Assembly: GCA_938003855.1 (NCBI GenBank)
Contig: CALKXD010000001.1
Coordinates: 1-53,577 of the forward strand
Direction: 5' to 3'
DNA length: 53,577 nt
Source: an uncultured Granulosicoccaceae bacterium
GTDB lineage: Bacteria > Pseudomonadota > Gammaproteobacteria > Granulosicoccales > Granulosicoccaceae
The notes below the pieces were generated by a model. That model was not told where the DNA came from, searched no databases, and worked only from the letters and a program-made list of their open reading frames with translations. The translations under genes and the position numbers were made by a program. Numbering within the stretch: position 1 is the first letter of the stretch; each line of letters begins with the position of its first letter. Positions 32,660 through 52,123 of this stretch are shown piece after piece.

Positions 32660-33162
32660 CGCACCTGCCGAGCGGTTACGGGTAACGTAGAACTGTGAGC
32701 CGCTGGCTCAAAGTGCTTCTTTTTAATCATAAATTTGTGACTACCATGGATTTGCAAGCCGACCCGGGTGTTCCGGAAAGTTAATTGTCTGCCCACACAA
32801 CCCAGGCTGCGTTATCCGTAACGACCTTACAGCGCTGAATCAGGGACTGGCCATTATCGGCGCCCGTGAATAGAACCCAGGGTAACCCGCAGCCTACGCG
32901 GACTGTGCTCAACGCCGCTCGACAGCATATCGAATTACGTCACTTACGGCTCTGCATTGTCGCGAATACAACGCAGCAACCGATGCCTGACAGTGATGGA
33001 ACGTTTCCTGCTCGCCATACGGCCGGTTTCTGTAACACGGCGTGGACCTGAATCGGTCGCAAATCACTTTATCGACGCACCGGTGATTTGCTTCGCGAAG
33101 CAGAGCCCAAATTCACATCTGCAGGTCTTAACTTTTATCTTGGATCGAATCGGAACTTCAAC
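32660..33162. other. xdhC-pelC divergent intergenic region
   Basis: 503 bp with no convincing gene. Open frames here (for example 32866-33051) have no SD and an unremarkable composition. It should contain the divergent promoters of xdhC-guaD and the pel operon. The last 100 bp hold a long inverted repeat and a palindrome (33059-33102). Confidence 0.6.
33059..33102. promoter_or_regulatory. Overlapping inverted repeat and palindrome before pelC
   Basis: GCAAATCAC (33059-33067) and GTGATTTGC (33083-33091) are exact reverse complements around a 15-bp spacer. The right arm overlaps a perfect 14-bp palindrome TGCTTCGCGAAGCA (33089-33102). The two pairings share bases 33089-33091, so as RNA they would be partly exclusive. 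They lie 61-104 bp ahead of the pelC ATG, consistent with an operator or a leader switch. Confidence 0.5.
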
Positions 33163-33951
33163 ATGCGCTTAAAATTTCTCGTCTGCCTGCTTATTGTCAC
33201 CAGTACATTGCTGACGGCATGCGAAACCATGACATCGTCAAAACGGGTGGCGGTGGCGACTGCCGACAAGTGGGCCCTTTTGCCGATTGAGAATTTGTCA
33301 AAGACGCCGCTGGCCGGTGATCGGGCACAGGCACTTGTCGAGACACATCTTCGCGCTCGCGGCATTAACAACCTGGATCTCTATCAACCCACCAGTGAGC
33401 AGTCACTACTGGCGCTTCTTGACGAAGCCGGACAGATGAATACTGCTATGCAATGGGCCAAAGACAACGGTTATCGCTTCGCCGTCACCGGCAACGTGCA
33501 GGAGTGGGAATACAAAGACGGGCTCGATAACGAACCCTCAGTGGGCCTGTCGCTGAAAGTCATCGACCTGTATAGAGACGAAGTTCTATGGCTGGCGTCG
33601 GGTTCCCGTACTGGCTGGGGCTACACCAACCTGTCCAGCGTCGCCAGTAAAACTATCAGAGAGTTACTCTCCGAGGTGCGCTTCAAACATCAGCAATCAA
33701 TTCCCGCCGGTAAAATTCCAGTGGCTCGGGTAAACCCGCCCGCATCGGTGGTACCTTCGCTGCTGTCAGCGCTGCCCCCTGCTCCTCCAATGACCGGTGA
33801 ACCACGCATCGAACCGTTGCCAACAGCGCTGGACGCTGAGCCCGAAATGGGAGCCGCGCAAGAAGCGCCACCTGAGAATGCAGTGCCACAGGTGTTCAGC
33901 AGACCGTTGCTGCTGCCATCCCCTTATGAAAACAACGAAGGGAACAATTAA
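33163..33951 (+). CDS. pelC: Pel polysaccharide export lipoprotein PelC
   Basis: Outer-membrane lipoprotein that in P. aeruginosa forms a periplasmic ring guiding Pel into PelB. From the ATG at 33163 the signal peptide MRLKFLVCLLIVTSTLLTAC has its lipobox Cys at residue 20. The PelC core (about 21-177) includes WALLPIENLSKTPLAGDRAQ and the Trp-rich WGYTNLSSVASKTIRELL end. An additional Pro/Ala/Glu-rich tail of about 85 residues (178-262) is absent from the 172-residue P. aeruginosa protein. The frame is open from 33088, but the signal peptide fixes the start. It is the first gene of the operon, which is unusual. Confidence 0.9.
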   Translation: MRLKFLVCLLIVTSTLLTACETMTSSKRVAVATADKWALLPIENLSKTPLAGDRAQALVETHLRARGINNLDLYQPTSEQSLLALLDEAGQMNTAMQWAKDNGYRFAVTGNVQEWEYKDGLDNEPSVGLSLKVIDLYRDEVLWLASGSRTGWGYTNLSSVASKTIRELLSEVRFKHQQSIPAGKIPVARVNPPASVVPSLLSALPPAPPMTGEPRIEPLPTALDAEPEMGAAQEAPPENAVPQVFSRPLLLPSPYENNEGNN

Positions 33952-33954
33952 CCG

Positions 33955-35358
33955 ATGATCAGTTTTAATCTGCCTGCTTCGGCGGTTCAGAAACACAAAG
34001 CCGGTTTCTCCTGGAGCAACACCGGCCCGAGCAAGCGCTGGCACCACAAGGTGTTCGAGCTTATTGTTTTCGCGATTGCTGTACCCGGCATCGGATTTCT
34101 GTTCTTTCGTCACGACCCTGTTGGAATGAATGCAGGGTTTCCGTGGTTTATCATTCCACCGGTTGTCTTCGCCGCGCGCTATGGTGCCTTGTGGGGCTTC
34201 GTGTGTGCGATCACATGTGCCGCAGCACTGGCGCTGCCATGGCTGGCTTACTCCGCGCAATATACGCATTTGATCGCGCTGGCAGTGGGCACGACCATTC
34301 TCAGTATTGTTGTCGGCGACTACGCCACCGCCGGTAAAAAGCAAAGCGCACAAGAATATGCAGAAAACCAGTATCTGCGTCACCGCCTGAAAGAGTTTTC
34401 CAAAGACTATCACATCCTTAAAGTCTCGCATGGTCAGCTTGAGGAATTCATGGCTGGACAACGCATGAGCGTTCGGCAGGCGTTGCAGCAACTCAAACCA
34501 CTGCTCACTACCAGCAACTCCAACGCTCGCAAGGCGGGCAACGAGCTAATGGCAGTATTTGCCCAGTTCGGTGCGGTACAGGTAGCCGGGCTCTATGGCA
34601 CCAAAGAAGAAGGTCGGATAAATCCCGACCCTATTGCCATACACGGTGATATGCCAACACTTAATCTGTTTGACCCATTGATTAAACTGGCAATTCAAAA
34701 CCGTCAACTGGTGAGCGTCAAGCTTGAAGCCAGAGCAAACGAAACCGTCAACAGCCAGTTACTGGCTGTTGTGCCCATTATAGATTCACACGACCATCTC
34801 CATGGTGTGCTGGCTATTAAAGACATGCACTTTATGGCTTTTCAGCAGGAAAACCTCAATGTGCTGGCTCTGCTTGGCAGCTACATCGGTGACATGCTGA
34901 CACGTTCCCGCAGCGTTGGTGAATCACGTAGTGGCTGGTTTCTCGCCGAACTCGACAACGCGATCCGCTTTGCCAGCACCAACCGCGTACAGTCCGCGTT
35001 GCTTGCCATCAAATTAAAAACAACGGATCAAACCCAGTATGTCGCTGACTACCTGTGCACTAATATCCGCAGTCTGGATAGCTCATGGCAGCCGCATTCG
35101 GCCTCAGGCAGTAACACCGTTGTGATCCTGCTGCCACTGATGAACAAAAATCAGTGCGAAGCCTATCTGAAGCGTATCTCTAAAAAGTTGTTTGATGAAG
35201 CACGAATCGATCTGACTCACGTCGCCGCCGAAGTGCGAATGAAGCAAATCGAGAAACGTGATACCCGCGATACCTGCCTGACTTTTGTCGGTGGAGTGGC
35301 AGGTTTCGGGGAAGCAAAAACCACTAAATCCAAAAGGAAGTCCAAACGTGCTGCGTAG
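33955..35358 (+). CDS. pelD: c-di-GMP receptor PelD
   Basis: Inner-membrane receptor that activates Pel synthesis on binding c-di-GMP. The 467-residue product has four membrane helices (about residues 33-120), a short coiled coil, a GAF domain (about 165-315) and a degenerate GGDEF domain. The last contains RSLD at 372-375, the RxxD inhibitory-site type motif that binds c-di-GMP in P. aeruginosa PelD (R367-D370). The active-site GGDEF is absent, so it is a receptor and not a cyclase. The C-terminus is Lys/Arg-rich. An SD GAAGGGAAC spans the pelC stop; spacing to pelC is 3 bp. Confidence 0.94.
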   Translation: MISFNLPASAVQKHKAGFSWSNTGPSKRWHHKVFELIVFAIAVPGIGFLFFRHDPVGMNAGFPWFIIPPVVFAARYGALWGFVCAITCAAALALPWLAYSAQYTHLIALAVGTTILSIVVGDYATAGKKQSAQEYAENQYLRHRLKEFSKDYHILKVSHGQLEEFMAGQRMSVRQALQQLKPLLTTSNSNARKAGNELMAVFAQFGAVQVAGLYGTKEEGRINPDPIAIHGDMPTLNLFDPLIKLAIQNRQLVSVKLEARANETVNSQLLAVVPIIDSHDHLHGVLAIKDMHFMAFQQENLNVLALLGSYIGDMLTRSRSVGESRSGWFLAELDNAIRFASTNRVQSALLAIKLKTTDQTQYVADYLCTNIRSLDSSWQPHSASGSNTVVILLPLMNKNQCEAYLKRISKKLFDEARIDLTHVAAEVRMKQIEKRDTRDTCLTFVGGVAGFGEAKTTKSKRKSKRAA

Positions 35359-36358
35359 TCTGCTTGGCATTCCGGTACTGTGCATGGCGCTGGCTGTAGA
35401 GTTACTGCTCAGCGCCCAACTACTTGTTGATCTGGGCTTGTGGATCAGTCTGGAGGTATGGCTGTTTGCCCATACGCTGGCCAGCCTGCTGGCAGCGTTT
35501 TGCACCGTGGCGATGCTATCGACACTGGTACCGGGCCGACGTACTCCGTTAATAGCACTGTTCTTTGTTACCGGGTTCTTTCTACCGTTTGTGGGCGCAC
35601 TGGGCTTGTGGCTTTCAGTCACGTTCGGCGCCATCATCGCACGCGGTCGCCACCAGGAAGAAGTGTTCTGGCAGTTCACCAGCAACGCTGACCTCCCCTT
35701 CGCCGCACCTATTGATCGCCCTCTGCCTAAACTCGATAGCCGCGGGTTCATCGAGCAACTGTCATTCGATGCCGAAACAGACAAACTTTACAACAAAGTT
35801 GCCGCTTCCAAGCATATACGCGATTCACAGTCAGGGCCGATTCTAAAGAGCGCTGTCGGTCATGACAATGAACGCATAAGGCTTGTGGCGTATCAGATGC
35901 TAGACAAGAAGGTGAGCAACATCAACAGCGAGATACAACGTCTCGAGGCCGATGCTCAAGCAGCCGTGGGATCAGGTAAATCAAACATTCATTTGCAAAT
36001 CGCAAATAACTACTGGGAGCTACTGACGCTGGAAGATGATGAACCCGTCGCGCGAGCAGAGTTGCTTCGCAAAGCGCATCATCACGCCAGCACTGCAATC
36101 GAGCTGGATCCACGCAACGTTAATGCGCACTTCATTCTCGGGCAGATTGCCTTAAAGCAAGACGACTCCAACCACGCGGTCAGTGCTTTCGAGCAGGCCA
36201 TATCACTGGGAATCTCCGAAGACAAAGTTCTGCCATACATCGCCGAAGCCGCCTATAAGATGCGCGATTTCGTCAAACTAAGAGCAACACTGGCGTCGGT
36301 GAGTCCGGCTTACCGGGCCTACCCTCCACTGTCGAATGTGACTGAGTACTGGGCATGA
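35348..36358 (+). CDS. pelE: Pel inner-membrane protein PelE
   Basis: Membrane component of the Pel synthase complex, containing TPR-like repeats. The frame is open from 35285, but AAAGGA lies 9 bases before a GTG at 35348, overlapping the pelD stop by 11 bp, so that start is preferred (336 residues). Two or three membrane helices occupy residues 5-95. The cytoplasmic part has TPR repeats (ARAELLRKAHHHASTAIELDPRNVNAHFILGQIALKQDDSNHAV). The end overlaps pelF as ATGA. Confidence 0.9.
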   Translation: MLRSLLGIPVLCMALAVELLLSAQLLVDLGLWISLEVWLFAHTLASLLAAFCTVAMLSTLVPGRRTPLIALFFVTGFFLPFVGALGLWLSVTFGAIIARGRHQEEVFWQFTSNADLPFAAPIDRPLPKLDSRGFIEQLSFDAETDKLYNKVAASKHIRDSQSGPILKSAVGHDNERIRLVAYQMLDKKVSNINSEIQRLEADAQAAVGSGKSNIHLQIANNYWELLTLEDDEPVARAELLRKAHHHASTAIELDPRNVNAHFILGQIALKQDDSNHAVSAFEQAISLGISEDKVLPYIAEAAYKMRDFVKLRATLASVSPAYRAYPPLSNVTEYWA

Positions 36359-37938
36359 GTAAATCACCAAAATTCAGTCCTGGAGCCCACGCAAACATTT
36401 GTCTGTTACTGGAGGGGACTTATCCCTATGTCAGGGGAGGTGTATCGAGTTGGGTGAAGCAGCTGATCGAAGGCATGCCCGAGTTGACGTTTTCAATTGT
36501 GTTTCTCGGCGGCAACGCTGATGAATACGATCAACCGGCATACGAAATTCCTCCCAATGTGGTGCATATAGAAAACCATTTTCTTATTGGCTCGGATAAA
36601 GAACCGGCAGCCAGAAAAAAATTCTGGAAGCGCAAGGCAGACAAAGCCGCACTGTTTGAGCGCAGTAAAGAACTCCACTCTATGCTGTCAGACACCGATA
36701 CTGTTGCAAACCCGCAGTTGGTACCAGATTTCACCTCGTTGCTGACCGCAGAAGAAGCCATTTGCCGCACTGATTTATTTCACAGTGATGAGGCGTGGGA
36801 GGCGATCCGCGAGAAGTATCTGGAAGCACCACCTGGTTTGGATTTCAACCATTTCTTCTGGACGGTGCGGACCATGCACAGCCCGTTGTTTACCCTTGCC
36901 AACATCGCAAAAAATGCCCCTCCAGCTGACCTCTATCATTCTGTCTCTACCGGTTACGCCGGATACCTCGGTGCAATGATCAAAAGTAAAACCGGTTCCC
37001 CCTACCTGATCAGCGAGCATGGCATCTACACCAAAGAACGGGAAATCGACCTGGCACATGTAGACTGGATTCCCGAAGAGATCGACCCGTTTAGAATCGG
37101 CATCGATGACAACATGAGTTACCTCAGACAGACATGGATTCGTTTTTTCCGATCACTCGGACGGATGTCCTACAGCTCAGCCGATCATGTCTATACCCTG
37201 TTCAACGGCAATCGCGAAAGACAACTCGAAGACGGCGCGGCGGACGACCGACTGACCATCATCCCGAATGGCGTAGCCGTTGCGCATCTCCGCACGATAC
37301 GCCGACCGGACACCGCAGCAGTTCCTCCGGTGCTGGCACTGATCGGCAGAATTGTCCCTATTAAGGACATTAAAACGTTTATCAGAGCGATGCGTATTAT
37401 CTGCGCCGCTGTGCCCGAAGCGCAAGGCTGGCTGGTGGGGCCGGAAGACGAAGATCCCGCCTATGCGGCAGAATGCAAGGCGCTGCTGAAAAGCTTTGGC
37501 CTGGAAAACTCAGTGAAGTTCATGGGCTTTCAAAAGCTGGATGATATCCTCCCCCACATCGGACTGACAGTTTTGTCGTCAGTGTCGGAAGGTCAACCGC
37601 TAACCACTCTCGAGGGTCTGGCCGCAGGGATCCCCGCTGTAACAACAGATGTCGGAAGTTGCAGTGAATTACTCTACGGCAATACCGATGAGGACCGCGC
37701 CCTGGGCCGGGCTGGCACTATTGTTCCGATTGCCAACCCGCGCCTGCTCGCTGAAGCTGCATTACCGCTGCTGACCGACCCGCAACTCTGGCGAAAAGCA
37801 AGCAAAGCCGGAATTGCCCGGGTGGAAAAATACTACGACGAAACCGACATGTTAAACCGCTATCGCGAGATCTATATCGACCAGATACATCGATCAATAG
37901 ACAGCCAACAGCAATTCAAGCACGCAGGAGGATTCTAG
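36355..37938 (+). CDS. pelF: Pel glycosyltransferase PelF
   Basis: Cytosolic GT4-family polymerase of Pel, using UDP-GalNAc/GlcNAc-type donors in characterised systems. The 527-residue GT-B protein begins with ICLLLEGTYPYVRGGVSSWV, the acceptor-side motif specific to PelF, and has the nucleotide-binding EX7E motif at Glu412-Glu420 (SEGQPLTTLEGLAAG). LALIGRIVPIKDIKTFIRA marks the start of the C-terminal Rossmann domain. Translation is coupled to pelE by the ATGA overlap. Confidence 0.96.
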   Translation: MSKSPKFSPGAHANICLLLEGTYPYVRGGVSSWVKQLIEGMPELTFSIVFLGGNADEYDQPAYEIPPNVVHIENHFLIGSDKEPAARKKFWKRKADKAALFERSKELHSMLSDTDTVANPQLVPDFTSLLTAEEAICRTDLFHSDEAWEAIREKYLEAPPGLDFNHFFWTVRTMHSPLFTLANIAKNAPPADLYHSVSTGYAGYLGAMIKSKTGSPYLISEHGIYTKEREIDLAHVDWIPEEIDPFRIGIDDNMSYLRQTWIRFFRSLGRMSYSSADHVYTLFNGNRERQLEDGAADDRLTIIPNGVAVAHLRTIRRPDTAAVPPVLALIGRIVPIKDIKTFIRAMRIICAAVPEAQGWLVGPEDEDPAYAAECKALLKSFGLENSVKFMGFQKLDDILPHIGLTVLSSVSEGQPLTTLEGLAAGIPAVTTDVGSCSELLYGNTDEDRALGRAGTIVPIANPRLLAEAALPLLTDPQLWRKASKAGIARVEKYYDETDMLNRYREIYIDQIHRSIDSQQQFKHAGGF

Positions 37939-37940
37939 GC

Positions 37941-39323
37941 ATGGCGGGTATTGGCTTTGAGTTACGAAAGTACCTGAACGAAGATTCCTTCAGCGGCACA
38001 CTAAAGGCCTACGGGTTTGCCGGTCTGATCAGCGCTGGTCCGTGGGTACTGTCGATCCTCGGTGTGATGTTAATCGGTATAGTCGCGATATCTCAAAAGG
38101 TCGGCGGCCAGGAGGTTGAGCAATTTACCACCTCGGTTACCTGGATTATGGGAACATCGCTGATTCTCTCGGGCTTTCTACAACTGGTCTTTACCCGCTA
38201 CATTGCCGATCGGCTGTTCGAGGGCCGCGATCATTTGATTAACCCTAATCTGTTCGGTGCGCTGCTGCTCACAACAGCCATCAGTGGCATTCTGGCTGCC
38301 GCCGCCATGTATCAGTGGTTTGACGAGGCGTTTAGCTACGAAGCATTGATGGTGGCCAACTTCGTGACGCTTTCGAACGTCTGGATACTGGTCATTTTTG
38401 TCGCCGGGCTGAAAAAATTCAAGGTAATTCTGTACTCTTTCTTCTTTGGCTATGCCACCACCGTTCTGCTGTCTATCCTATTGATGCCTTTTGGCATTGC
38501 AGGGTTGCTGACTGGCATGCTGGTCGGCCATGCCCTGCTGCTGTTTCTGATGCTGGCCGTAGTCATACCAGAGTACCCCGTTCAGCAAACTGTGCGGGTT
38601 GATTTCCTCAAGCGCAAGGAGATTTTCCCGGTACTGATCTTTGTCGGTGTTTTCTATAACCTGGGTATCTGGATTGACAAGCTAATATTCTGGACCAACC
38701 CTGGTACCTCTGAGGCGATTATCGGTCCCCTGCGGGCGTCGTTGATATATGACTTACCGATCTTTCTGGCGTACCTGTCTATCATTCCGGGTATGGCGGT
38801 TTTTCTGCTTCGAATCGAGACAGACTTCGCCGAAGCCTATGACGGTTTTTTCAACGCAGTACGCGGCAACGCCAGTCTGCAGGAAATCGAAACGCTCGGC
38901 AACGAAATGATTCTGGCTGTGCGTGAAGGTATTTTTCAGATAATTAAAGTACAGGGCATCACCGTCCTAATACTCTACATGCTGGGGCCCAAGATCGTTT
39001 CATGGCTGGGCATTTCGCAAAAATTCATCCACCTGTATTACATTGATCTTGTGGGTGTTGCCGCACAGGTGCTTATGCTGGCCGTGCTCAACGTGTTGTT
39101 CTATCTGGATCGCTTACGCGATGCCTTCTGGCTCACGCTGACACTGCTGGTAACTAACGCAAGCTTCACCTGGATCAGCCTGCAACTCGGTCCGATGTAC
39201 TACGGCTACGGCTTTGGTCTATCGATGACTCTCACCGCGTTTGTCGGTATCTACCTGTTATCCAGTGAGCTTGAAAACATCGAGTTCAGAACCTTCATGC
39301 GTCCACGTAGTGCCGGTGCCTAG
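37941..39323 (+). CDS. pelG: Pel polysaccharide flippase-like protein PelG
   Basis: Wzx/MATE-like inner-membrane protein that moves Pel out of the cytoplasm with PelD, PelE and PelF. The 460-residue product begins MAGIGFELRKYLNEDSFSG, the conserved PelG opening, and has about twelve membrane helices, e.g. AGLISAGPWVLSILGVMLIGIV and VLILYMLGPKIVSWLGIS. Strong SD AGGAGG ahead of the ATG at 37941, 2 bp after the pelF stop. Confidence 0.96.
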   Translation: MAGIGFELRKYLNEDSFSGTLKAYGFAGLISAGPWVLSILGVMLIGIVAISQKVGGQEVEQFTTSVTWIMGTSLILSGFLQLVFTRYIADRLFEGRDHLINPNLFGALLLTTAISGILAAAAMYQWFDEAFSYEALMVANFVTLSNVWILVIFVAGLKKFKVILYSFFFGYATTVLLSILLMPFGIAGLLTGMLVGHALLLFLMLAVVIPEYPVQQTVRVDFLKRKEIFPVLIFVGVFYNLGIWIDKLIFWTNPGTSEAIIGPLRASLIYDLPIFLAYLSIIPGMAVFLLRIETDFAEAYDGFFNAVRGNASLQEIETLGNEMILAVREGIFQIIKVQGITVLILYMLGPKIVSWLGISQKFIHLYYIDLVGVAAQVLMLAVLNVLFYLDRLRDAFWLTLTLLVTNASFTWISLQLGPMYYGYGFGLSMTLTAFVGIYLLSSELENIEFRTFMRPRSAGA

Positions 39324-39363
39324 TGACACCGAAATGCGAGTACAACTAATGATCGAGGCTTCA

Positions 39364-42147
39364 ATGCGCTCAGGTATCACCAAAGTGCTGATGTCGGTGG
39401 CTGTCGTCCTGATGCAGCTTGCATTCAGCGCACACGCAAGCTCCGGGAAAAGCGTGGCATTTTTCTATGGACCAAATCCGCCGGTCAACGCACTGTCCCA
39501 ATTTGACCGGTTGGTACTCGAATCCGAGAACGTCACCGCTGACGAACTGAAACAACTGAAACGCAATAACAGCACGGCTTTCGCCTACCTGAGTGTGGGT
39601 GAAGTGGGTCCGCACCGGAAATGGTTTGACCAGATCCCGCAGCAAGCCGTTCTCGCTGATAACCCAGACTGGAACAGTTTAGTCATGGATCTCACCAGCG
39701 CGCAGTGGCAGAATTTTCTGCTGCAGCGTACCGATCTGCTGATCCAGTCAGGCTATGACGGATTATTTCTCGATACGATGGACAGTTACCAACTGGCAGC
39801 CAGCACAGACGAACAACGCAAGGCCCAACAGGCCGGACTCACCACCCTGTTGCAGCGGATCAAGCAAAAACACCCGAACATTCGCATGATTGTAAATCGC
39901 GGGTTCGAGGTAATGAATAAAATCAGTCCATACATCGAAGCTGTTGCAGCGGAATCTCTATACGCTGGCTGGAACAACGCAGAGCAAACCTACCAGGAAG
40001 TCTCCGAAGCAAATCGCGGCTGGCTGCGAAATCAGCTGGATGCCGCCAGTAATCGTTATGGACTGGACGTCATCGTGATTGACTACCTACCCCCGTCACG
40101 ACGAAGCGATGCCAGAGATGTTGCCGCACAAATTGCAAAACAGGGATTTATTCCGTGGGTCGCCAACCCGGCGCTGGACTATGTCGGTATCAGCACACTG
40201 GAGGTAGTACCGCGGGATGTGATCATGCTTTTCGATAGCCGCGACACCGATACAGCAGAACAATCAGAGGTTCATAACCTGCTGGCTATGCCACTCGAAT
40301 ACATGGGGTATGTCCCCGTGTATCATGACATCGCCAAGCTCGGTTTGCCGCAGGGTATACTCAAGGGCAGCCACGCCGGTGTTGTGTCATGGCATCGCGG
40401 CACAGTGAATACACCCGGCTATGGCGATTGGCTGCACAAGCAGCTTGAAGACCAGCTACCACTGGCTCTGTTCGGCGCAATTGGCACTGAGCTCACCGAA
40501 CCCCTGTCGGAATTGCTCGGTATAGAGCAGGCCGATGACGTCGCCGGCGGCTCTCTGGCGCCGTCTTATGGTGACCAGTTGACAGGCTTCGAAGCGCCAC
40601 TGGTTCGGCGAATCAATGCGCTGAGTTCTCAGTTGCGGAACAACAGTCCCCTGAATACCAGCCATATGCGCTATAAGGACGATAACGGTGTTGAGGTTGA
40701 TACCGTCCTGACCGGCCCGTGGGGAGGCCTGGCACTACACCCCACTATGATGGACTACGATATTGATCGCATCCCTAATTGGGTAGTCGATCCTTTTAAA
40801 TTTCTACGCAAGTCGCTGCAGCTGCTCGACGCCCCGATGCCTGATATCACCACTGAAAACGGCAATCGGCTCTGGTTTGCGCACATTGACGGTGACGCGA
40901 TGCCCTCCTGGGCGGAGCTCCCCGGCAGACGTCTCGGCGCCCAGGTACTCCAGGACGAGGTAATCGTACCGTACGATCTGCCACACACTATATCGATTGT
41001 TGAAGGTGAGCTCACAGCACTGGACGCCTACATGGACCGGCGCCCGTTGATGGTTCGAACCGCCAGAGAGTTGTTTGCTCTGGACAACGTTGAAATTGCA
41101 TCGCATTCGTACAGCCACCCGTTTGACTGGGAGGCGATAAAAGAAAACGATAACAGCGGCAGATACAACCTGCCAATCCCCGGATACAAATACCAGCTGG
41201 AAAAAGAAATAGCCGGCTCAATAAAATACATTGACGAAAACCTGGCGCCAGCGGGAAAGCGAACCCGGGTAATGTTGTGGTCCGGACTGGCTGTTGCGAC
41301 AGAACGTGCGCTGGAAATTGCAGGGCAAGCCGGGGTGGTCAATATAAATGGCGGCAACACCGTTATCTCACGCGCGATGCCAACGGTCTCTACTATTTCC
41401 CCCCACTCGTTGTCTACCGGAAAGCAACTTCAGGTGTATGCACCGATCATGAACGAAAACGTCTTTACCAACGAATGGACAGGGCCGTTTGACGGGTTTC
41501 GCCGTGTTATCGAAACTCTGGAGATGACTGACATACCCCGACGCATCAAACCGATGAACGTCTACTACCACTTCTATATCGGCACAAAAAAATCATCACT
41601 TCGGTCACTGCAGGAAATCTACGATTGGTCTCTGCAGCAGGATATGTTTCCGGTCTTCGCCAGCGAGTATATTGTCAAAGTGCCGTTCTTCCGGAGCGCA
41701 GGTGTGGCGAGATATCTGGACGGGCGCTGGAAAATCACCGGACTGGGACCAATCAGGTCGCTGCGTACACTGAAAAACAATGCCTGGCCCGATCTGCGAT
41801 CAAGCCGGTCGCTCACCGGTGCACGTGCGCTGCATGATGGAATCTATATACACACCGACGGTGCAGACAGCTTCAGCTTCAAAATGCAGACATCAAAGCC
41901 AAAGCAGCCTCACCTGATGGCATCCAACGCTAAAGTGCACCACTGGCGGCCTCAGCGTAACGGTCAGATTAACGTGCGTTTATCGGGTCATGCACCTGTA
42001 AATATGACACTGAGCGGTGATCAGCGCTACTGCCAGATGCGCCAGGGTAGCGAGATCATACCCGGTCAAAAGAACGCCGAAGGCAACACCACTTACCAAT
42101 TTTCAACAAAGGACACTGGCGATGCAGTTATCGACTGTAAAACGTGA
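39364..42147 (+). CDS. pelA: Pel hydrolase/deacetylase PelA
   Basis: Periplasmic bifunctional enzyme that deacetylates and cleaves Pel. The ATG at 39364 has GAGG at a 5-base spacing and a signal peptide ending SAHA|SS, so it is preferred to the open frame from 39241 inside pelG. The product has 927 residues. The N-terminal GH166-type domain includes VAFFYGPNPP, YLSVGEVGP and GYDGLFLDTMDSY. A CE4-like deacetylase follows, with metal and catalytic residues Asp509/Asp511 (HIDGD) and His581/His585 (SHSYSHP), matching the spacing of P. aeruginosa PelA (D528, D530, H600, H604). The end overlaps pelB by 26 bp. Confidence 0.95.
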   Translation: MRSGITKVLMSVAVVLMQLAFSAHASSGKSVAFFYGPNPPVNALSQFDRLVLESENVTADELKQLKRNNSTAFAYLSVGEVGPHRKWFDQIPQQAVLADNPDWNSLVMDLTSAQWQNFLLQRTDLLIQSGYDGLFLDTMDSYQLAASTDEQRKAQQAGLTTLLQRIKQKHPNIRMIVNRGFEVMNKISPYIEAVAAESLYAGWNNAEQTYQEVSEANRGWLRNQLDAASNRYGLDVIVIDYLPPSRRSDARDVAAQIAKQGFIPWVANPALDYVGISTLEVVPRDVIMLFDSRDTDTAEQSEVHNLLAMPLEYMGYVPVYHDIAKLGLPQGILKGSHAGVVSWHRGTVNTPGYGDWLHKQLEDQLPLALFGAIGTELTEPLSELLGIEQADDVAGGSLAPSYGDQLTGFEAPLVRRINALSSQLRNNSPLNTSHMRYKDDNGVEVDTVLTGPWGGLALHPTMMDYDIDRIPNWVVDPFKFLRKSLQLLDAPMPDITTENGNRLWFAHIDGDAMPSWAELPGRRLGAQVLQDEVIVPYDLPHTISIVEGELTALDAYMDRRPLMVRTARELFALDNVEIASHSYSHPFDWEAIKENDNSGRYNLPIPGYKYQLEKEIAGSIKYIDENLAPAGKRTRVMLWSGLAVATERALEIAGQAGVVNINGGNTVISRAMPTVSTISPHSLSTGKQLQVYAPIMNENVFTNEWTGPFDGFRRVIETLEMTDIPRRIKPMNVYYHFYIGTKKSSLRSLQEIYDWSLQQDMFPVFASEYIVKVPFFRSAGVARYLDGRWKITGLGPIRSLRTLKNNAWPDLRSSRSLTGARALHDGIYIHTDGADSFSFKMQTSKPKQPHLMASNAKVHHWRPQRNGQINVRLSGHAPVNMTLSGDQRYCQMRQGSEIIPGQKNAEGNTTYQFSTKDTGDAVIDCKT

Positions 42148-45100
42148 AAGCCTGATACCGCCGGTTTATCTGGTTAGCATCGCACTGCTTCTGATTGTCT
42201 CATTTATCATACTGCTGCCTTCTCGCGAGACATTTGTCTATACACCGGCAGCAACGACTAATGCTGACTCAGCTGCTATAGACGAGCTCGATCTGGCCTA
42301 TCTAAAAGCGCGGGATGCAGCTGGTGATTTAAGCGTCGCCGAGATGCGAAATGTCATTCACACAATGATCCGTGGTAAAAAGTGGCAGCAAGCGCGCGCG
42401 CTGCTTGAGCAACGCCCCGAGATAGTCCTGACACCCGCCGACCAGTTTCTACTGCGGCTGGAAACGGCAACAGCCGGGTATTTCGATGCTGACAACGAGG
42501 CCCGCAACGTTGCCTATGAGGCGAGCCTCATCAGCATGATGACCCAACTGCTCGATACGCCGACGCTGCACGATGTCGACACGCTCACACGTGCATCACA
42601 GATCAGCACCGAACTCAGACAGCCAGAGCTGTCTGCGGCCTATCACATGTTACTGGCAAACGCTGATCAGCCAAATGCGGTCCACTGGCTGGAACAATGC
42701 GCGCGCATTCTGTCTAGCTATCAGATGCACGGGCAATCGGTACAGTGCTACAAACGCGCTATCGCAAAGAGTACAGACGCTGATAAAACCTTTCAGCTGA
42801 CCTTTCTGCTGACAAATCTATATACCGCCACCGGCGATTCATTTGCTGCAAACGCAGAACTCGAAAAAATGGCCCGAATGACGCCCCTGCACCCCCGTCA
42901 AATGGAAAGACTGGCTGACCTTGCGCTGGCGACAGAACGGCCTGATCTGGCCTATCCGCTCTATGCACGATTGTCTTTGCTGGACGAGCCGAATGCCGTC
43001 ATGTGGCTTGAGCAGGCAGCCAGGTGGGCCGAGGCGTCCAGTTTACCGGGGCTGGCCGCCGAGTACGTTTTAAATATGGCCAACCTCAGTGGCGACGCCA
43101 ACCAGGAACCACTGGCGAAGCGTCGACAGCGCCTGCTGCTGGCATCAGGGCGCAACGAAGACGCACTGCAAACCGTCTATGAGCGTATTACCAAGCAACC
43201 TGATAACGCGGATCTGCTGATTGAAGGTATTGAAATCGCCAGTAATATGGGCCTGACCACACAAGCGCTGGACTGGAACGAAGACCTGCTTGCACTGCGC
43301 CCTTATGAACTCACCGCCATGAAGCGCCAGATCAATTTCGCTCTGCGCAACAGAGAACTCGATAGCGCGTTAATCTGGGCGCAACGGATCGTTGAAGTCG
43401 ATCCCTCCAACGAAGACAGCCGTGTGAAGCTGGCTCAGCTGGAAGAGTGGAATGGCAACATACAAAACGCTCAAAGCCAACGCGAATGGCTGGCAGAGAA
43501 CTTCATCAGCGCACACAACGACCGCGAGCTAATCCGCCTTGCACAGCTAAACTGGGATTCCGCTACTGCAGCCGAAACGTTGCGCCGCCTGTCACGCAGA
43601 GAGCCACTCAGCACCGAAAATATCCTGAAGCTGGTCAAGCTCTACGAGCAGGATGGCAGGCCTGACACCGCCGCTGAAGCCCTTGAAGAAATGATGACCA
43701 ATCGCCGGCTGCAGCCGATGCTGCTGCGTGAACTGGCCGCCCTGCACAAACGCCACCGGAACTTCGACAAATCATTGCAGACCTGGGAAAAATTTACCGC
43801 ACAGTTTGGGCGGTCCAGTGAAGAATCCCTCAACCGTATGGAATTGCTGTGGCGCTTAAAACAAAGAATGGCTGCCGTCGACATAGCCGACGACCTCGGT
43901 AAACATAACCTCACCAACGCCACTGAGACTCAATTAAAGGTGATCAGTGAAATTGGCTGGCGATACCGTAAGCCGGCATTGGTTCTGGCTGCCGCTCCGT
44001 TCATCGATCAGCTTGATCTCGATGACGAGACCCGTCTGACGTACACCCGACAGACTGTTCAGTCACTCACCGACAAGACTGATTACAAAGCCGCCGTTGA
44101 GCTCTCGGAAAAAACCTGGCACGACACCAATCAGCTCGAGTTCCTTCTAACCGCTATGCACATTGCGCTGGACCATAACGTCTATCCTCACCTGGAGCGT
44201 TTCCTTGATGCCACAGATGAGTTGCTGATGCTGCGAGAAATACCCGAATACTGGTTGACCGTCGCGGAATTCCACACCAGAAACCGCGATACCGTAGCGG
44301 CGTTGGAAACTTACCGGAATATACTCGCAACACAGCCGGACAGCTCTTTTGCGATCACCGGTTTACTGTGGACGCTGCTCGGCAGTGATGACAGTGACGA
44401 CACCAATAGCCAACTACAGGCAGCACTCGATCAATACGAGGACCTGGCCGTAGAAACCCCCGATTTCTGGAGCCAGTACGCGATGAGCTATCTGAAACTG
44501 GGGAAGCCCGAGATCAGTTTACGGTGGTTCAGCAAGCTGATGGTCAAAGACGATCACGACTACAACATTCTACTATCGTTTGCGGATGCACTGGAGCAAA
44601 CCGGCAACTCAGTTCACGCATTTAAGGTGCGCAGTTACGCGCTGGGGATGCTCAGACCGATGATCGTCGCCAGCACTATACAGAACACTAATGCACTGGC
44701 GCGCGACTACATAAGTCTGCTGCAGATCTACGGCAGCGCAAGCGAAAACGAAGCCTGGACAAATCGATTACTCGAGGGTATCCCCGGAGACACAGACGCA
44801 GAAACTGCATGGAGAAGCGAGTTGGCAGCGTCCTGGTATCTGGCAACCCAGCGCAGTGATTACGCCAGACTGTTAATGACCCGATCGCACGAAAAGCGCA
44901 TCCAAGCGCCCGCATGGCAAACCCTGGCGCTGGCACTGGCCGAAAACAATGTCGGTGCGGTTAAAGAAATTCTGGCCAGCGGCAAAGCGCTGTCAAACGG
45001 TGATCGTATCCTCGCACTGCGCAAGATTGGTGATGACCGCAAGGCCTATGAACTGGCCTCCGCAAACATGGTCAATGAACGCAGTAATGCGGCACGAAGC

Positions 45101-46081
45101 GCAGCACAGGCACATGTAATTTCACTGCGCCCCTACTACCCCGGCTACTATGCCGGACGCGTGCAGCGGCGTGAAATTGACCAGCTTGATATTACCGAAA
45201 CCGGTCTTTCGCTGCGACACACACTGTCAGAGAGCGACCTCGGATTTGCGGTGGACTACCGCCATTCGACACTGGCGTCTGACATCTACCGCGTCGATCA
45301 GACGGAGGAAGATGATATTGCCGTTTCCGCGTACTTCGGCGGCAGGGTCACCGGAGGCAGTATCACCGCCGGCGTCAATAACCAGGGGGAAAACGTCCTC
45401 ACCTACGCAACTGGCAGCTACCACACCGGCGATCTGGACGGGCGTCATGTTCTGCGTACAAAAGTAGGCCTGGGCGAAGTTACCGACAGCGGTGCAGAAC
45501 TGCGCCTCGGTGCCAAGCAGGATCGGGCCGAATTCAGCCTTGAGTCAGCCATCGGTAAGCGTGAATTTATAAAACTCAGTGGTAACTACAACGAGATTAG
45601 CACTCGCAATGACGGCACCCCGATGTCACAGGGCGTTGGTGCCAGCCTCGAGCTGGGCACCAGAGGGTCATTTGGCAGTAACAACTGGAGCATGGGAGTT
45701 GTCGCAAGTGGCGAAAAGAACAAACTCGAAGACACCCTGCCGGACAGTATCAGGAGTTTGTCCAGTCGCTCAACTTTCTCTAGAATACTGGCAAAGGAAA
45801 AACAGGAACTCGCTGTCAGCGCGTCGTTGTTTCGCGGTGGTATTCATTCTGACTACCTGCATGCGGCGTCACCCCGGTATCATTTAACCGCTACCGTGGG
45901 ACACAACCTGCAGGCAGACTCCACCGCATTTCAAGTGCATGCCGGTGCAGGATTCCGGGTACTAGGCAATGACGAACTGAGCCTCCAACTGAGCCACGAT
46001 CGCAGTGTCAGTGCCGTCGAAGACGCCATAGAAAGTGTTCCCAGCTCCACTATCGGCATTCAGTACCGGAATCACTTCTAG
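42122..46081 (+). CDS. pelB: Pel outer-membrane export protein PelB
   Basis: TPR scaffold plus outer-membrane beta-barrel that exports Pel. The ATG at 42122 lies within pelA and follows AAAGGA at 8 bases; the frame from 42017 is less likely. The 1319-residue product (1193 in P. aeruginosa) has an N-terminal membrane helix (YLVSIALLLIVSFIILLP), about 1000 residues of TPR-type helical repeats and a C-terminal beta-barrel of about 300 residues ending in Phe (IGIQYRNHF), as outer-membrane barrels do. Last gene of the operon; a hairpin follows at 46084-46117. Confidence 0.94.
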   Translation: MQLSTVKRESLIPPVYLVSIALLLIVSFIILLPSRETFVYTPAATTNADSAAIDELDLAYLKARDAAGDLSVAEMRNVIHTMIRGKKWQQARALLEQRPEIVLTPADQFLLRLETATAGYFDADNEARNVAYEASLISMMTQLLDTPTLHDVDTLTRASQISTELRQPELSAAYHMLLANADQPNAVHWLEQCARILSSYQMHGQSVQCYKRAIAKSTDADKTFQLTFLLTNLYTATGDSFAANAELEKMARMTPLHPRQMERLADLALATERPDLAYPLYARLSLLDEPNAVMWLEQAARWAEASSLPGLAAEYVLNMANLSGDANQEPLAKRRQRLLLASGRNEDALQTVYERITKQPDNADLLIEGIEIASNMGLTTQALDWNEDLLALRPYELTAMKRQINFALRNRELDSALIWAQRIVEVDPSNEDSRVKLAQLEEWNGNIQNAQSQREWLAENFISAHNDRELIRLAQLNWDSATAAETLRRLSRREPLSTENILKLVKLYEQDGRPDTAAEALEEMMTNRRLQPMLLRELAALHKRHRNFDKSLQTWEKFTAQFGRSSEESLNRMELLWRLKQRMAAVDIADDLGKHNLTNATETQLKVISEIGWRYRKPALVLAAAPFIDQLDLDDETRLTYTRQTVQSLTDKTDYKAAVELSEKTWHDTNQLEFLLTAMHIALDHNVYPHLERFLDATDELLMLREIPEYWLTVAEFHTRNRDTVAALETYRNILATQPDSSFAITGLLWTLLGSDDSDDTNSQLQAALDQYEDLAVETPDFWSQYAMSYLKLGKPEISLRWFSKLMVKDDHDYNILLSFADALEQTGNSVHAFKVRSYALGMLRPMIVASTIQNTNALARDYISLLQIYGSASENEAWTNRLLEGIPGDTDAETAWRSELAASWYLATQRSDYARLLMTRSHEKRIQAPAWQTLALALAENNVGAVKEILASGKALSNGDRILALRKIGDDRKAYELASANMVNERSNAARSAAQAHVISLRPYYPGYYAGRVQRREIDQLDITETGLSLRHTLSESDLGFAVDYRHSTLASDIYRVDQTEEDDIAVSAYFGGRVTGGSITAGVNNQGENVLTYATGSYHTGDLDGRHVLRTKVGLGEVTDSGAELRLGAKQDRAEFSLESAIGKREFIKLSGNYNEISTRNDGTPMSQGVGASLELGTRGSFGSNNWSMGVVASGEKNKLEDTLPDSIRSLSSRSTFSRILAKEKQELAVSASLFRGGIHSDYLHAASPRYHLTATVGHNLQADSTAFQVHAGAGFRVLGNDELSLQLSHDRSVSAVEDAIESVPSSTIGIQYRNHF

Positions 46082-46204: not shown

Positions 46205-47302
46205 CTATACCGGGGCGTCATGTACCGAATCGAGTAACGGCCAGTCAAACTCAACACCGGTGCCGGCAACATCCGGCGCGATGGCCAGGCAATTGTCCAC
46301 CACCAGCGGTCTTTTGGTATAGCTGTCTATCGGGAAAGAATGGACTTCAAGCCAGCCGGCATTTGTCTGTCCTGACAACAGACTCACGTGCAACTCCTGC
46401 ATACCGTGACTGCACACCGGGACGTTGTACTCACGCGACAGTGCAGCCACCTGCAACCACCCGGTAATACCACCACAGTTCGATGAATCCGGCTGAATAA
46501 AAGACAGCTTTGACTGCTTAAAGGCATACTCGAACTCGTGCAAAGTATGCAGGTTCTCTCCCATAGCCAATGGCATACCGGTGGCATCGCCAATGTGCGC
46601 ATAACCAGCATAGTCGTCGGGAATAATTGGCTCCTCGAACCAGACAATATCGTATGGCTTAAACGCATTTGCAGCCTCAATGGCGCCAGCAACGGTCATT
46701 GAGTAATTCGCGTCGACCATAAAACTCACATCGGGACCGATCAGATCCCGCACAGCCGCGACACGTGCAACGTCGTCTGCAAGCGACGGCTGTCCCACTT
46801 TTATTTTTACCGCATTAAAGCCGCGATTCAGATACCCCTGAACACTGTCCAGTAGTTTCTCATTGGAAAAATTCAGGTCGATACCTCCACAGTAGGCTTT
46901 GCAGCGATCCGATGCGCCACCAGCCATTTTCCAAAGTGGCTCAGCACGCTGCTTTCCGCGGATATCCCACAACGCTATGTCGACCGCCGAGACAGCAAAA
47001 CCTGCCACGCCACCACGGCCGACATAATGTATATGCCAGAGCATTTCCTGGTACAGCGATTCAATGTCGCCGGCGTCACGCTGCATGATCAGTGGCTGGA
47101 GGTCGTGCTGAATCATCGCCAGAATAGACGCCCCGCCCCGGCCACCGGTATAGGTGTATCCGGTGCCCTCGATACCATCATCGGTGGTCACTGTTACGGT
47201 AATGAGTTCGAAGTGAGAGTGCGCACCATGCCTGGCATCGTGCAGCACTTCTGCCAGTGGAATTTTATATAAACGAGCAACAATTTTTTTTATGATTGAC
47301 AT
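46205..47302 (-). CDS. Mandelate racemase/enolase-superfamily sugar-acid enzyme
   Basis: A 365-residue member of the enolase superfamily, mandelate racemase subgroup, probably a dehydratase or epimerase of a sugar acid or similar carboxylate. The capping domain (1-125) includes the 20s-loop region [11 protein letters not shown]. The barrel has the base motif KIK (Lys166, Lys168), metal ligands Asp197 (VDAN), Glu223/224 (FEEP) and Glu249 (GEN), Asp272 and the general base His299 (CSHGMQE). Substrate not assignable from sequence; talarate/galactarate-type dehydratases share the KxK plus His arrangement. It lies 41 bp after the TPP enzyme on the same strand. Confidence 0.88.
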
Positions 47303-47343
47303 GGGTATCGGATTTCCCGGTAAGGTGCTTACGGCGGCGGAAT

Positions 47344-49011
47344 TCAGTCAGAGCCACTCGCCAACGACGCCATAGACAATGTTGGCGTCAGCGCGTCTGC
47401 ATTTGTTTTTATATGGATCAGAGCTGGAAGCCCCTGCCCGTTACCGGTTGCGCTCACCGCATCAGCCAGAGCCGCTGGAAACTCACTGGCATCATTCACC
47501 GTGGCGGCAAAGGCTCCGTACGATCTAGCCAGTGCAGCGAAGTCCGGGTTAACCAGATCGGTCGCTGAAACCCTGCCCGGGAAGTGCATTTCCTGATGCA
47601 TGCGGATAGTGCCGTACATACTATTGTCGACGACCAGAACAATCACCGCCGCACCGGCCTGCACCGCTGTTCCAAACTCCTGCTGCGTCATTTGAAAACA
47701 ACCGTCACCGGCAAACGCCAGTACCATTCGCTGCGGGTGTGCCAGCTTGCCTGCGATCGCGGCGGGTAATCCGTAGCCCATTGACCCACTGGTGGCAGCC
47801 AGCTGCGAGCCATAGCTGCGGAATGGCCAGTAACGATGAATCCAGCCGGTATAGTTACCCGCACCATTGCAGATAATAGTATCCCGCGGCACCGAGTCCA
47901 TAAGATGCTGCATGATCTCACGCATGGTGTGCGCCGCCGGTAATGTGTGTCGCAGCGACGACCAGTCAAGATATTGCTCATGCGCAGTCACAACAGTACC
48001 ACTCCAGCCGGGTTCGCTAGCCGGACTCAATGATTCAAGCGCGGCGCAAAAGGCGACCGGACTGGCCTGTATAGCGAGCGTCGGTTTATAGGTTTTGCCA
48101 AGTTCTTCTGCTTCCGGGTACACATGCACGAACTGCTGCCCGGGTTCGGGTATATCGATCAAGGTATAATCCTGCGATGGCACCTCAGGCAACCGCCCTC
48201 CCAGCAATAACAGGACATCGGTATCGCGCACGCGCTGCAGAAGCGCCGGATTACAACCCAGGCCTATATCACCCGCGTAGTTCGGGTGTGAGTGATCAAA
48301 CAGATTCTGACGACGAAAAGAACATGCGACGGGCAATTGATAGCGTTCAGCAAAGCGTGTGAACTGCCCGACCGCCTCTGCACTCCAACGACTCCCGCCT
48401 AGAATTGCAAGCGGTTGTCTGGCGGCCGCCAACATCGCTGCAAATGACTCAACGACCACCTCACCGGGATAAGATTCAGTCTGTTGCCAGGGAGACAATA
48501 ACCGTTGTTCAGCGGTATCGGTTAGTGTGTCTTCCGGCAGCACCAGCACTACCGGGCCGGGACGTCCGCTGGTGGCTACGTGCCAGGCACGGGAGACCAT
48601 TTCCAGAACGCGATCCGCACTGTCGATTTCGGCCACCCACTTGGCCATGCCACCAAAAAACTGCTGATAGTCAAGTTCCTGAAAGGCTTCGCGATGCCGA
48701 CGGGTTGATGCAATCTGTCCGACAAATAGAATCATCGGGGTAGAATCCTGCGCGGCAATGTGCACGCCTGCCGATGCGTTAGTGGCACCGGGCCCCCGCG
48801 TTACAAGGCAAATTCCCGGTAGACCAGAGTCCTTTCCCCAGGCCTCCGCCATCATCGCAGCACCACCTTCCTGTCGGCAGACGGTAGTCGCTATGCCACT
48901 GTCATACAACGCGTCCAGCACCGGTAAGTAGCTTTCACCGGGCACACAGAATACCCGTTCGACACCAAAAACCTTCAGTGCCTCGATGATCAGTTCACCA
49001 CCACTAGTCAT
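47344..49011 (-). CDS. Thiamine pyrophosphate enzyme, acetolactate synthase-like
   Basis: A 555-residue TPP-dependent decarboxylase/ligase of the IlvB family. The N-terminal Pyr domain has the catalytic Glu in [16 protein letters not shown]. The central domain (FAD/nucleotide-like fold) includes [15 protein letters not shown]. The C-terminal PP domain has the [19 protein letters not shown]...DNSMYG thiamine-binding motif. The start at 49011 is set by GAGAGGAAAC before an ATG; the frame is open to 49056. No acetolactate synthase small subunit is present, so classical branched-chain synthesis is unlikely and a catabolic role with the neighbouring enolase-superfamily enzyme is plausible. Substrate unknown. 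Confidence 0.88.
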
Positions 49012-49225
49012 GTTTCCTCTCTTGCTTGACGCAGGTGCCTGATAACATAACACCAATACGAATTAACGTGAGCGCAAATCGACTTACCGCCAACGCAAGC
49101 ATTGACACTACCGGTTTCCCGACCCACGACAAACACTATTATCAGCCCGGACAGCACAGCAATGCCACAATGCACAATGAGGTTCCGGCCACAATGGTCA
49201 TCACCTTCCGGCACACTATCGCAGC

Positions 49226-51220
49226 TTAGCTGCCGCGTTTTTTCTTTGAGCTGCTGCCACTGGCTTTTTTCTTTGATCGAGCCTTCTTCTTGAACGCCGA
49301 TTTTTTCTTGAATCTATCGCCCTTTACGGTACCGCTTTTCGGCGGAGCGGCGACACCACGCAACGCCGTGACTGACCCATTACCGCTTTGCTGTATCAGT
49401 TGATGGAGCTGAGCGTTTAACGGCTGCATGAAATGGTCATAGCTGGTCTCGCGTAAACTGATGGCGTTAAGCGTCGACTCCCAGTGTGCTGTCATATCCG
49501 GCTGCGTGGCCACTTCAGGCAGCGAGTGTATTAACCCCCGGCCAGCATCGGTCGCATGAATCTGCTTTCCCTGTCGCACCAGAAAGCCGCGTCTAAACAA
49601 TAACTCTATAATACCGGCGCGTGTTGCTTCAGTACCCAGTCCGTCAGTCTCTTTAAGTATTTTGCGAACATCAGCAGAGCTGACGAAGCGGGAGATCCCG
49701 GTCATCGCTGCCAGTAGAGTCGCATCGGTAAAGTACGCCGGAGGGGTGGTGCTTTTTTCCAGTAACTCGCCACGCTCGCACAACAGGCGCTGCCCTTTTG
49801 TCAGTGGCGGCAGATACTTTTCTGCCGTCGGGGTTTTATCTGCAGCATTTTTTTTATCCGATTGAAACAACACTTTCCAACCCGCTTTCAACACCGTTTT
49901 TGCATTGGCAATAAACAACCCGCCCTCGATTAAAATTTCGGCCCGTGTATCGGCGTACTCGTGGGGCGGATAAAACTGCGCCAGATACTGCCGTGCCACC
50001 AGCGCATAGACTTGTTTTTCCTGGGGGGTCAGGCTGGCCGTATTGATGCGGCGGGTGGTGGGAATAATAGCGTGGTGCGCGGTGACCTTGCTGTCGTTCC
50101 ATGCCGCTGTTTTTAACGCGGTGTTAGCCTTGGCAACAAATTGCTGGTAGCGCGCATCGTTGTGCACAACCGCGTCCAGTACCTCTGTTGCCTGCACGTG
50201 ATGCTCGACCGGTAAATGGCGGCAATCTGACCGGGGGTAGGTAATAAGTTTATGTTTTTCATACAATGACTGACACACCGACAACACCAGCTGAGCATTC
50301 ATGCCATAGCGTCGCGCCGCATCGATCTGCAGAATTGACAGACTGTATGGCAACGGCGGCGATTGCTTTTTGTTCTTTTTCTCGCACTTTTGCACCGACG
50401 CGGGTTTGTTATTGATACGCTCTACGACGTTTTCGGCGAGCTTTTTTACCAGCACCCGACCTGCATCGTCCATATAGGGCTGACAAGCGTCGCTCGGTTG
50501 CCAGGTGGCAGTAAAGTCTTCTCCAGCCTCTGTTTTCAAATGCGCCAGCACTTCATAAAAAGGCTTGGAGACAAACTTCTCTATTTCTTCACAACGCCGC
50601 ACCACCAGACCCAACACTGGCGTTTGTACACGGCCAACGGAAAGCACACCATCGTAGCCCACCTTGCGCCCTTGAATCGTGTAGGCCCGGGTCATGTTTA
50701 TTCCGTACAACCAGTCAGCCCGCGAGCGCGCAAGCGCAGACGAGGACAGCGGCGCATAGTCGCTGTTGTTTTCCAGGCGGCTCAACGCGCGTTGCACGGC
50801 ACTTGGGTTCAAGTCACTGATCAGCAAACGCTGGACGGCGGCGCGTCTTTTTGCACTGACCTTAAAATAGGCGATGACCTGATCGACAAGCAATTGCCCC
50901 TCGCGGTCCGGATCACCGGCGTGGACGATGATTTCGGCGTCGGCAACCAGTTTCCTAAGCACTGCCAGCTGCGATTTTGTATCGCGCTTCGGCTGCAGTT
51001 TCCATTGCTCGGGAATAATTGGCAGGTGCTGCATCCGCCACGATTTAAATTCAGGGTCGTAGATGTGCGGCTCGGCCTGCTCCAGCAAATGACCAATGCA
51101 CCAGCTGACGCAATCACCATTGGCGGCGGTAATAAATCCATCGCCACGACGCAGCGGGGTTGGCAGGACATCGGCAATGGCTCTGCCCAGACTCGGTTTC
51201 TCAGCGATATACAAACGCAT
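49226..51220 (-). CDS. topB: DNA topoisomerase III
   Basis: Type IA topoisomerase that decatenates DNA. The 664-residue product has the TOPRIM metal residues Glu7 (IAEKPS), Asp103/Asp105 (GDPDREGQ) and the catalytic Tyr at 328 (TYPRSD), the E. coli TopB position. SVGRVQTPVLGLV and the C-terminal LGTEATRAGIIELL are type IA signatures. The end is a Lys-rich tail of about 40 residues (KKKSAFKKKARSKKKASGSS) with no zinc finger. Start ATG at 51220. Divergent from the small-protein genes to the right; the downstream 214 bp before the TPP gene hold nothing visible. Confidence 0.95.
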   Translation of the reverse strand: MRLYIAEKPSLGRAIADVLPTPLRRGDGFITAANGDCVSWCIGHLLEQAEPHIYDPEFKSWRMQHLPIIPEQWKLQPKRDTKSQLAVLRKLVADAEIIVHAGDPDREGQLLVDQVIAYFKVSAKRRAAVQRLLISDLNPSAVQRALSRLENNSDYAPLSSSALARSRADWLYGINMTRAYTIQGRKVGYDGVLSVGRVQTPVLGLVVRRCEEIEKFVSKPFYEVLAHLKTEAGEDFTATWQPSDACQPYMDDAGRVLVKKLAENVVERINNKPASVQKCEKKNKKQSPPLPYSLSILQIDAARRYGMNAQLVLSVCQSLYEKHKLITYPRSDCRHLPVEHHVQATEVLDAVVHNDARYQQFVAKANTALKTAAWNDSKVTAHHAIIPTTRRINTASLTPQEKQVYALVARQYLAQFYPPHEYADTRAEILIEGGLFIANAKTVLKAGWKVLFQSDKKNAADKTPTAEKYLPPLTKGQRLLCERGELLEKSTTPPAYFTDATLLAAMTGISRFVSSADVRKILKETDGLGTEATRAGIIELLFRRGFLVRQGKQIHATDAGRGLIHSLPEVATQPDMTAHWESTLNAISLRETSYDHFMQPLNAQLHQLIQQSGNGSVTALRGVAAPPKSGTVKGDRFKKKSAFKKKARSKKKASGSSSKKKRGS

Positions 51221-51571
51221 CAGCGATACCGGATGTCAGCAGTATCTGTGTTGGTTCGGCGATAAACAGACGCACCGTTAATGGCTGTTTTACACGGATC
51301 GGATAACAAAATGTGAAGGATCAGAGCAAAGGTCTCCACGGACAATAAGCACTAACAGGGAACAACTTCCAGCGGCCTATAATAAATGAAATCAGATCGC
51401 GCCGTCATTTCGTTATCCATCGCGCCAGAGGGGGCGCAGTCCGGAATCCCGATCTGGCAGCCGCCGCCAAATCAGGTGAGAAGTGAACCCATACCGTTTG
51501 CCGGCACAATTTTCTGACAGTTGTAAAAAAACTGCTATAAATTTACAGCATAAGAAAAAAGGAGCATCACC
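51221..51571. other. topB-small protein divergent region
   Basis: 350 bp. The right end carries the promoter and SD of the 51-residue gene at 51572. The rest should contain the topB promoter. Short frames such as one from an ATG near 51387 lack an SD and were not accepted. Confidence 0.5.
51514..51541 (+). promoter_or_regulatory. Sigma-70 promoter of the first small protein gene
   Basis: CTGACA (51514-51519, one change from TTGACA), a 16-bp spacer, and TATAAA (51536-51541) preceded by TGC as an extended -10. Transcription would begin near 51548, giving a leader of about 24 bases with AAGGAG. CAGTT and AACTG inverted arms flank the A-rich spacer. Confidence 0.6.
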
Positions 51572-51727
51572 ATGGTAAAAAAAATAAGAAATCGCTACCG
51601 CCGGTTCAAATTTAACAACCAACCATATTTTCCAGGTTTGTTCTTCACCCTGGAGATGGCGCTGAGCAGCAGTAAAATGCTCGCCATGGGTGTGGTATTT
51701 TTTGCCATATTTTATTCTGTTCACTAG
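51572..51727 (+). CDS. Small basic membrane protein, first of a paralogous pair
   Basis: 51 residues. The N-terminal 13 residues are highly basic (MVKKIRNRYRRFK); a Pro-Gly turn follows (YFPGLFFTLE), then a hydrophobic helix (about residues 36-48, MLAMGVVFFAIFY) and a very short tail. A strong SD AAAAAAGGAG sits 7 bases before the ATG, and a promoter lies upstream. Aligned without gaps to the 51-residue product at 51937-52092 (shifted by one), 19 of 49 positions are identical, including RRFK, PG, FTL and IFY. This supports it as a real gene. I do not recognise the family. It could be a small membrane regulator or a toxin-like peptide, but nothing shows which. Confidence 0.75.
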   Translation: MVKKIRNRYRRFKFNNQPYFPGLFFTLEMALSSSKMLAMGVVFFAIFYSVH

Positions 51728-51936
51728 CACAATCGACAACTTCTACCGCTCTGTATCTGCCTTTTGCCGCATGCAGAGCACCTGTCGGCTTGCCCGATGA
51801 CAGAATCAGGAGAGAATTAATCTGTCGTGGTTGATGACATTTTGACTTTAGTTGTCTGATTAAGTCGACGCTGATCTTTGTCCAGCCGCAAGCCGTGATA
51901 AGGTTTATGTCTACTCGCCAGGGAGGCAAGTCGGCT

Positions 51937-52092: not shown

Positions 52093-52123
52093 CTCACTGA
52101 CAACGGCCACATTACAACGGTGA

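Follow-up and report, generated by a model that had tools for sequence, protein, structure and literature searches.

A Pel operon with pelA-pelB placed behind pelG is the rule in the Granulosicoccaceae

The Pel exopolysaccharide operon of the Granulosicoccaceae, a family assigned to the Gammaproteobacteria by NCBI, is ordered C-D-E-F-G-A-B, and this order is the rule in the family, an old inherited rearrangement and no recent oddity. Very probably, a complete Pel operon has descended vertically within the family, in which pelA-pelB changed place a single time, from the front of the operon to its back, ahead of the divergence of the sampled members. The order was read in the window, the whole 53,577-nucleotide stretch of DNA analysed here, which comes from a marine gammaproteobacterium of an uncultured Granulosicoccaceae genus (genus code g1; host genome of 312 contigs, 6.8 Mb). 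Positions 33163-46081 hold seven consecutive, closely spaced pel genes, all long open frames of which none is broken:

33163..33951, + strand, pelC, lipoprotein of the outer membrane and part of the PelBC export ring (PDB 9h80_C, 121 bits, E 8e-34)
33955..35358, + strand, pelD, predicted inner-membrane c-di-GMP receptor (PF16963, 55.9 bits; PDB 4dmz, E 8e-25)
35348..36358, + strand, pelE, inner-membrane TPR protein
36355..37938, + strand, pelF, GT4 glycosyltransferase (NF038011, 669.6 bits against a cut-off of 100)
37941..39323, + strand, pelG, inner-membrane transporter (PF16933, 497 bits, full model covered)
39364..42147, + strand, pelA, periplasmic enzyme with hydrolase and deacetylase domains behind a plain signal peptide (PDB 9cgy, 617 bits; GH114, PF03537)
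42122..46081, + strand, pelB, TPR scaffold and outer-membrane barrel (PF24604, 128 bits; TPR matches; PDB 9h80_M, E 7e-23)

The window thus carries all seven genes in the order given by the original prediction. Their identities come from profile or solved-structure matches, except for pelE, which is identified by sequence features: its TPR matches, its place between D and F, and matching pelE frames in relatives. Gene limits are the likeliest starts, judged from the bases preceding each start codon. They put the start of pelE at GTG 35348, with the frame start TTG 35285 less likely, that of pelA at ATG 39364, 40 bases past pelG, and that of pelB at ATG 42122. The tight spacing and the three predicted overlaps are borne out, at 11 bases for D/E, 4 for E/F and 26 for A/B.

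Residues expected of a working system are retained. In PelD, an RxxD motif (RSLD) and the Arg of YLKR align with 4dmz; together these make up the c-di-GMP I-site motif of a degenerate GGDEF domain, which window PelD keeps and by which it is predicted to bind c-di-GMP. PelC has the lipobox LTAC, with its lipid Cys and equivalents of D119 and W149; W149 we take, on our own reading, to be the conserved tryptophan of the published PelBC work. Both D119 and a conserved tryptophan of PelC are described in PMC12141448. The PelA motifs HIDGD, SHSYSHP, NENV and YYHFY align with 9cgy, their active-site residues intact. The deacetylase residues of P. aeruginosa PelA are D528, D530, H600, H604, E723 and H761 (PMC12022489), and window PelA has an equivalent of each, together with the GH114 hydrolase domain. 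The window therefore shows the features that define a Gram-negative Pel system: PelA to PelG encoded together, a PelF-type GT4 synthase with PelG, a PelB with TPRs and a C-terminal barrel, and a PelC lipoprotein with D119 and W149. The typical but non-defining order A-B-C-D-E-F-G is absent from it.

Compared with pelABCDEFG of P. aeruginosa, the window has the same seven genes, domain make-up, PelA active-site residues, PelD RxxD and PelC D119 and W149, but A-B stands last instead of first and a sigma-54-type element precedes pelC. Among the best 80 of 576 loci, PelF of Pseudomonas relatives is about 46-51% identical to window PelF. Window PelB and PelC also match the PelBC complex (PDB 9h80, PMC12141448) and the PelC dodecamer (5t10, 5t11). 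The set is complete and probably working, as had been predicted from the gene content, and the host is predicted to make Pel, a sticky, partially deacetylated alpha-1,4-GalNAc polymer of biofilms. The system should act as in P. aeruginosa: PelF would polymerise GalNAc; transfer through the inner membrane would fall to PelD (with c-di-GMP), PelE and PelG; on the PelB scaffold, PelA would partly deacetylate and trim the chain; and export would run through PelB and its PelC ring.

PelG was found in 34 of 48 Granulosicoccaceae genomes and in 13 of 14 genomes of the window's genus, against 21 of 369 in a class-wide sample and 30 of 398 in a phylum-wide one. Gene order was surveyed with profiles built for the seven Pel proteins and mapped on 145 loci, 33 from distinct Granulosicoccaceae genomes and 112 from outside the family (with some overlap between collections); sampling beyond the family was partial, covering the best 80 of 576 loci and 767 genomes. 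Every distinct family genome whose contigs reach both pelA and pelB (27/27, of 33 in total) has C-D-E-F-G-A-B. Five genus codes (g1-g5) are represented among these, as is a genome in a single contig of 7.78 Mb (G768/L161); most family genomes surveyed are metagenome-assembled. Contigs of the remaining six stop early and show nothing contradictory. Because it recurs in all 27, the window order is not a chance reading, and A-B is displaced as a unit throughout. The original interpretation stands as to the full gene set, the departure from the P. aeruginosa order and the movement of A-B as a unit, but a reading of the order as peculiar to this organism is not supported: being common in close relatives, the order is ordinary by the prediction's own yardstick.

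Outside the family, C-D-E-F-G-A-B was met in none of the 79 loci showing both A and B. A-B comes first in 78 of them; the exception, in a Thiothrix MAG (L093:9986-20574), is another permutation, F-G-(895 aa gene)-A-B-D-E, with a short PelA frame of 382 aa. Pel order thus changes in other lineages too, yet in this partial survey C-D-E-F-G-A-B is confined to the Granulosicoccaceae. It is very unlikely that C-D-E-F-G-A-B is ancestral and A-B-C-D-E-F-G derived. The pel gene trees lack a known root, which leaves room for such a polarity, but A-B is first across gammaproteobacteria (Burkholderiales, Pseudomonas, Marinobacter, Nitrosospira) and in the Myxococcota MAG L069, several genomes from other classes of the phylum have pelA, though divided, upstream of C-G, and the alternative order belongs to one family.

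Several further variants were observed in the survey. In other classes of the phylum (G394, G400, G431 and others), PelA is split into a hydrolase gene and a deacetylase gene, which in several genomes lie upstream of C-G or on a separate contig. One of these genomes, L193, carries C-D-E-F and G-A on opposite strands. In Paraburkholderia/Burkholderia loci (L090:12982-13926, L108, L118, L124, L125), an extra PelA-like gene of about 315 aa, the hydrolase part by its length, follows pelG, and a Leucothrix locus (L094:2249-3421) has a PelA frame of 391 aa, too short to hold both a hydrolase and a deacetylase domain. Apparent D-C, F-E and G-F orders in L111, L142 and L169 are artefacts of sorting early-starting stop-to-stop frames, and these loci were scored as canonical.

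Pel operons whose pelA and pelB depart from the canonical arrangement are already on record in Bundalovic-Torma et al. 2020 (PMC7112194, Fig. 5), with pelA in Nitrosospira multiformis and fission plus rearrangement of pelB in aquatic thermophiles as examples. The rearranged operons described in its accessible part include neither Granulosicoccaceae nor an intact A-B pair behind G. In the open-access literature searched, neither the C-D-E-F-G-A-B order nor a PelC-PelA fusion is described, and no account of Pel from Granulosicoccaceae turned up, in line with the earlier suggestion that Pel may be undescribed in this host. The Pel system is known and pelA/pelB rearrangement is published in general; the order C-D-E-F-G-A-B is apparently undescribed.

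Phylogenies of the A+B and D+E+F+G concatenates (FastTree supports) agree. In each, the family falls on one side of a single branch with support 1.0, g1 and g5 group with support 1.0, and locus L158 is the deepest family branch (0.98 and 0.97, respectively). Patristic distances within the family correlate between the two trees at r = 0.97, a value reached in 0 of 2000 permutations. This agreement contradicts a two-source assembly of the operon, in which C-G and A-B would have come from different lineages and for which the original prediction had proposed incongruent trees as the sign. The displaced A-B and a G-A junction new in the family would suit such a history, but the congruent trees, together with a host genome holding one pelA and one pelC, make it extremely improbable. 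PelD is also present once in that genome, and a search for second copies of pelA and pelC found none.

The preferred reading is a single A-B move in the family ancestor, followed by vertical inheritance. XdhC family and amidohydrolase genes upstream of pelC are common to g1 loci. Neither upstream of pelC nor downstream of pelB did a search reveal relics of pelA, pelB or pelC. With no scars from which to read it, the route may have been duplication of the A-B unit and then loss, or excision and reinsertion. As for the surroundings in the window, 1173-32659 carries housekeeping and metabolic genes (alaS, mutS, SMC/RecN-like, mutL, amidase, RNase E/G, amidohydrolase and xdhC) and 46205-53134 carries enolase-superfamily, TPP enzyme and topoisomerase III genes; no mobile-element signs were noticed in the pel neighbourhood.

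Sister genera of the host differ at the G-A junction. In g2, g3 and g4 (Granulosicoccus and two sister genera), a lipoprotein signal and then a PelC-like domain stand at the start of the pelA frame; this holds for 20 loci, of which one is truncated at a contig end (including L161:11274-14633; L040, L046-L051, L057, L059-L064, L153-L164). PelA of g5 and of g1, the window's own included, is without this domain. One fused domain matches PDB PelC at E 2e-11. Another was modelled (pLDDT 87), and its model is matched best by structures of PelC (TM about 0.77), so that by modelling the domain has the PelC fold. Unlike PelC in the published PelBC and PelC structures, it has neither D119 nor W149 (0/20 each) and is joined to PelA, a fusion not reported in the accessible part of that work; the family's free PelC keeps D119 in 29 of 30 and W149 in 30 of 30. 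Since the conserved tryptophan is needed for assembly of the PelBC complex, according to PMC12141448, the fused copy probably does not replace the ring subunit. It may instead anchor PelA at the outer membrane.

The origin of the domain may bear on the move itself. Possibly, A-B moved together with a copy of pelC, as C-A-B; this copy would have become the PelA-fused domain of the sister genera and would have disappeared from g1. It could stem from tandem duplication of A-B-C or from a circle that opened at the B-C junction. We regard this as tentative. In all 20 g2-g4 loci examined, the PelC-like domain falls precisely at the G-A junction, and it occurs nowhere else in the survey; it has the PelC fold, and placing it with the family's own PelC gives a tree 33.7 log units better than the free search. 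L158, the deepest family branch in both trees, carries it; L158 is, however, a long branch. A later single gain, with the carriers as one clade, is not rejected (p-AU 0.47 and 0.31), and a later, separate pelC duplication would look identical. Somewhat more speculative is the fuller proposal that the pelC duplicate that moved with A-B gave rise to a lipid-anchored, non-ring-forming PelC-derived arm on PelA, which would hold the deacetylase at the outer-membrane exporter and which g1 would have dropped while keeping the new order.

The region upstream of pelC contains a putative promoter:

32997..33012, + strand, element resembling a sigma-54-type -24/-12 promoter, TGGAACGTTTCCTGCT, from which the operon is predicted to be transcribed

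The element has GG and GC at -24/-12 within consensus surroundings (TGGAACG-N4-CTGCT), and the pattern TGGMACRNNNNNTGCW has a single match in the window, with 0.36 expected. It is kept in 12 of 12 loci of g1 and g5, the window's genus and its nearest neighbour, at a steady 145-178 bases from the pelC start region. Column identity is 89% there, compared with 45% in the bases immediately upstream. A second conserved block, CGGCCGGTTTCTGT, follows it in g1/g5 loci. In g4 the element is absent save for scattered matches near chance, and it is therefore not a family trait. The host genome encodes rpoN and a FleQ-type activator, and a Burkholderia precedent links RpoN and a c-di-GMP effector in biofilm control (PMC5552954). 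The operon would then be one transcript from this predicted promoter. Sigma-70-like sites were also considered as promoters but showed no clear excess (11 against 8.4 in shuffles, sd 3.2), and no c-di-GMP riboswitch or other Rfam RNA was found in the window at the gathering threshold.

Across a whole clade, these loci show an exopolysaccharide operon whose genes changed order with none lost. The genes A and B, whose products bind each other, stayed paired, and B was parted from C, whose product PelB also binds. In the window's genus, the sigma-54-type site suggests control of Pel by an RpoN-dependent activator. Two structural papers of 2025 differ on PelA-PelC adjacency: PMC12141448 suggests a contact, whereas PMC12022489 models none. 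A natural PelC-PelA fusion, if the proposed history is true, would bear on this question, and its occurrence in the sister genera makes the proximity of PelA and PelC testable.
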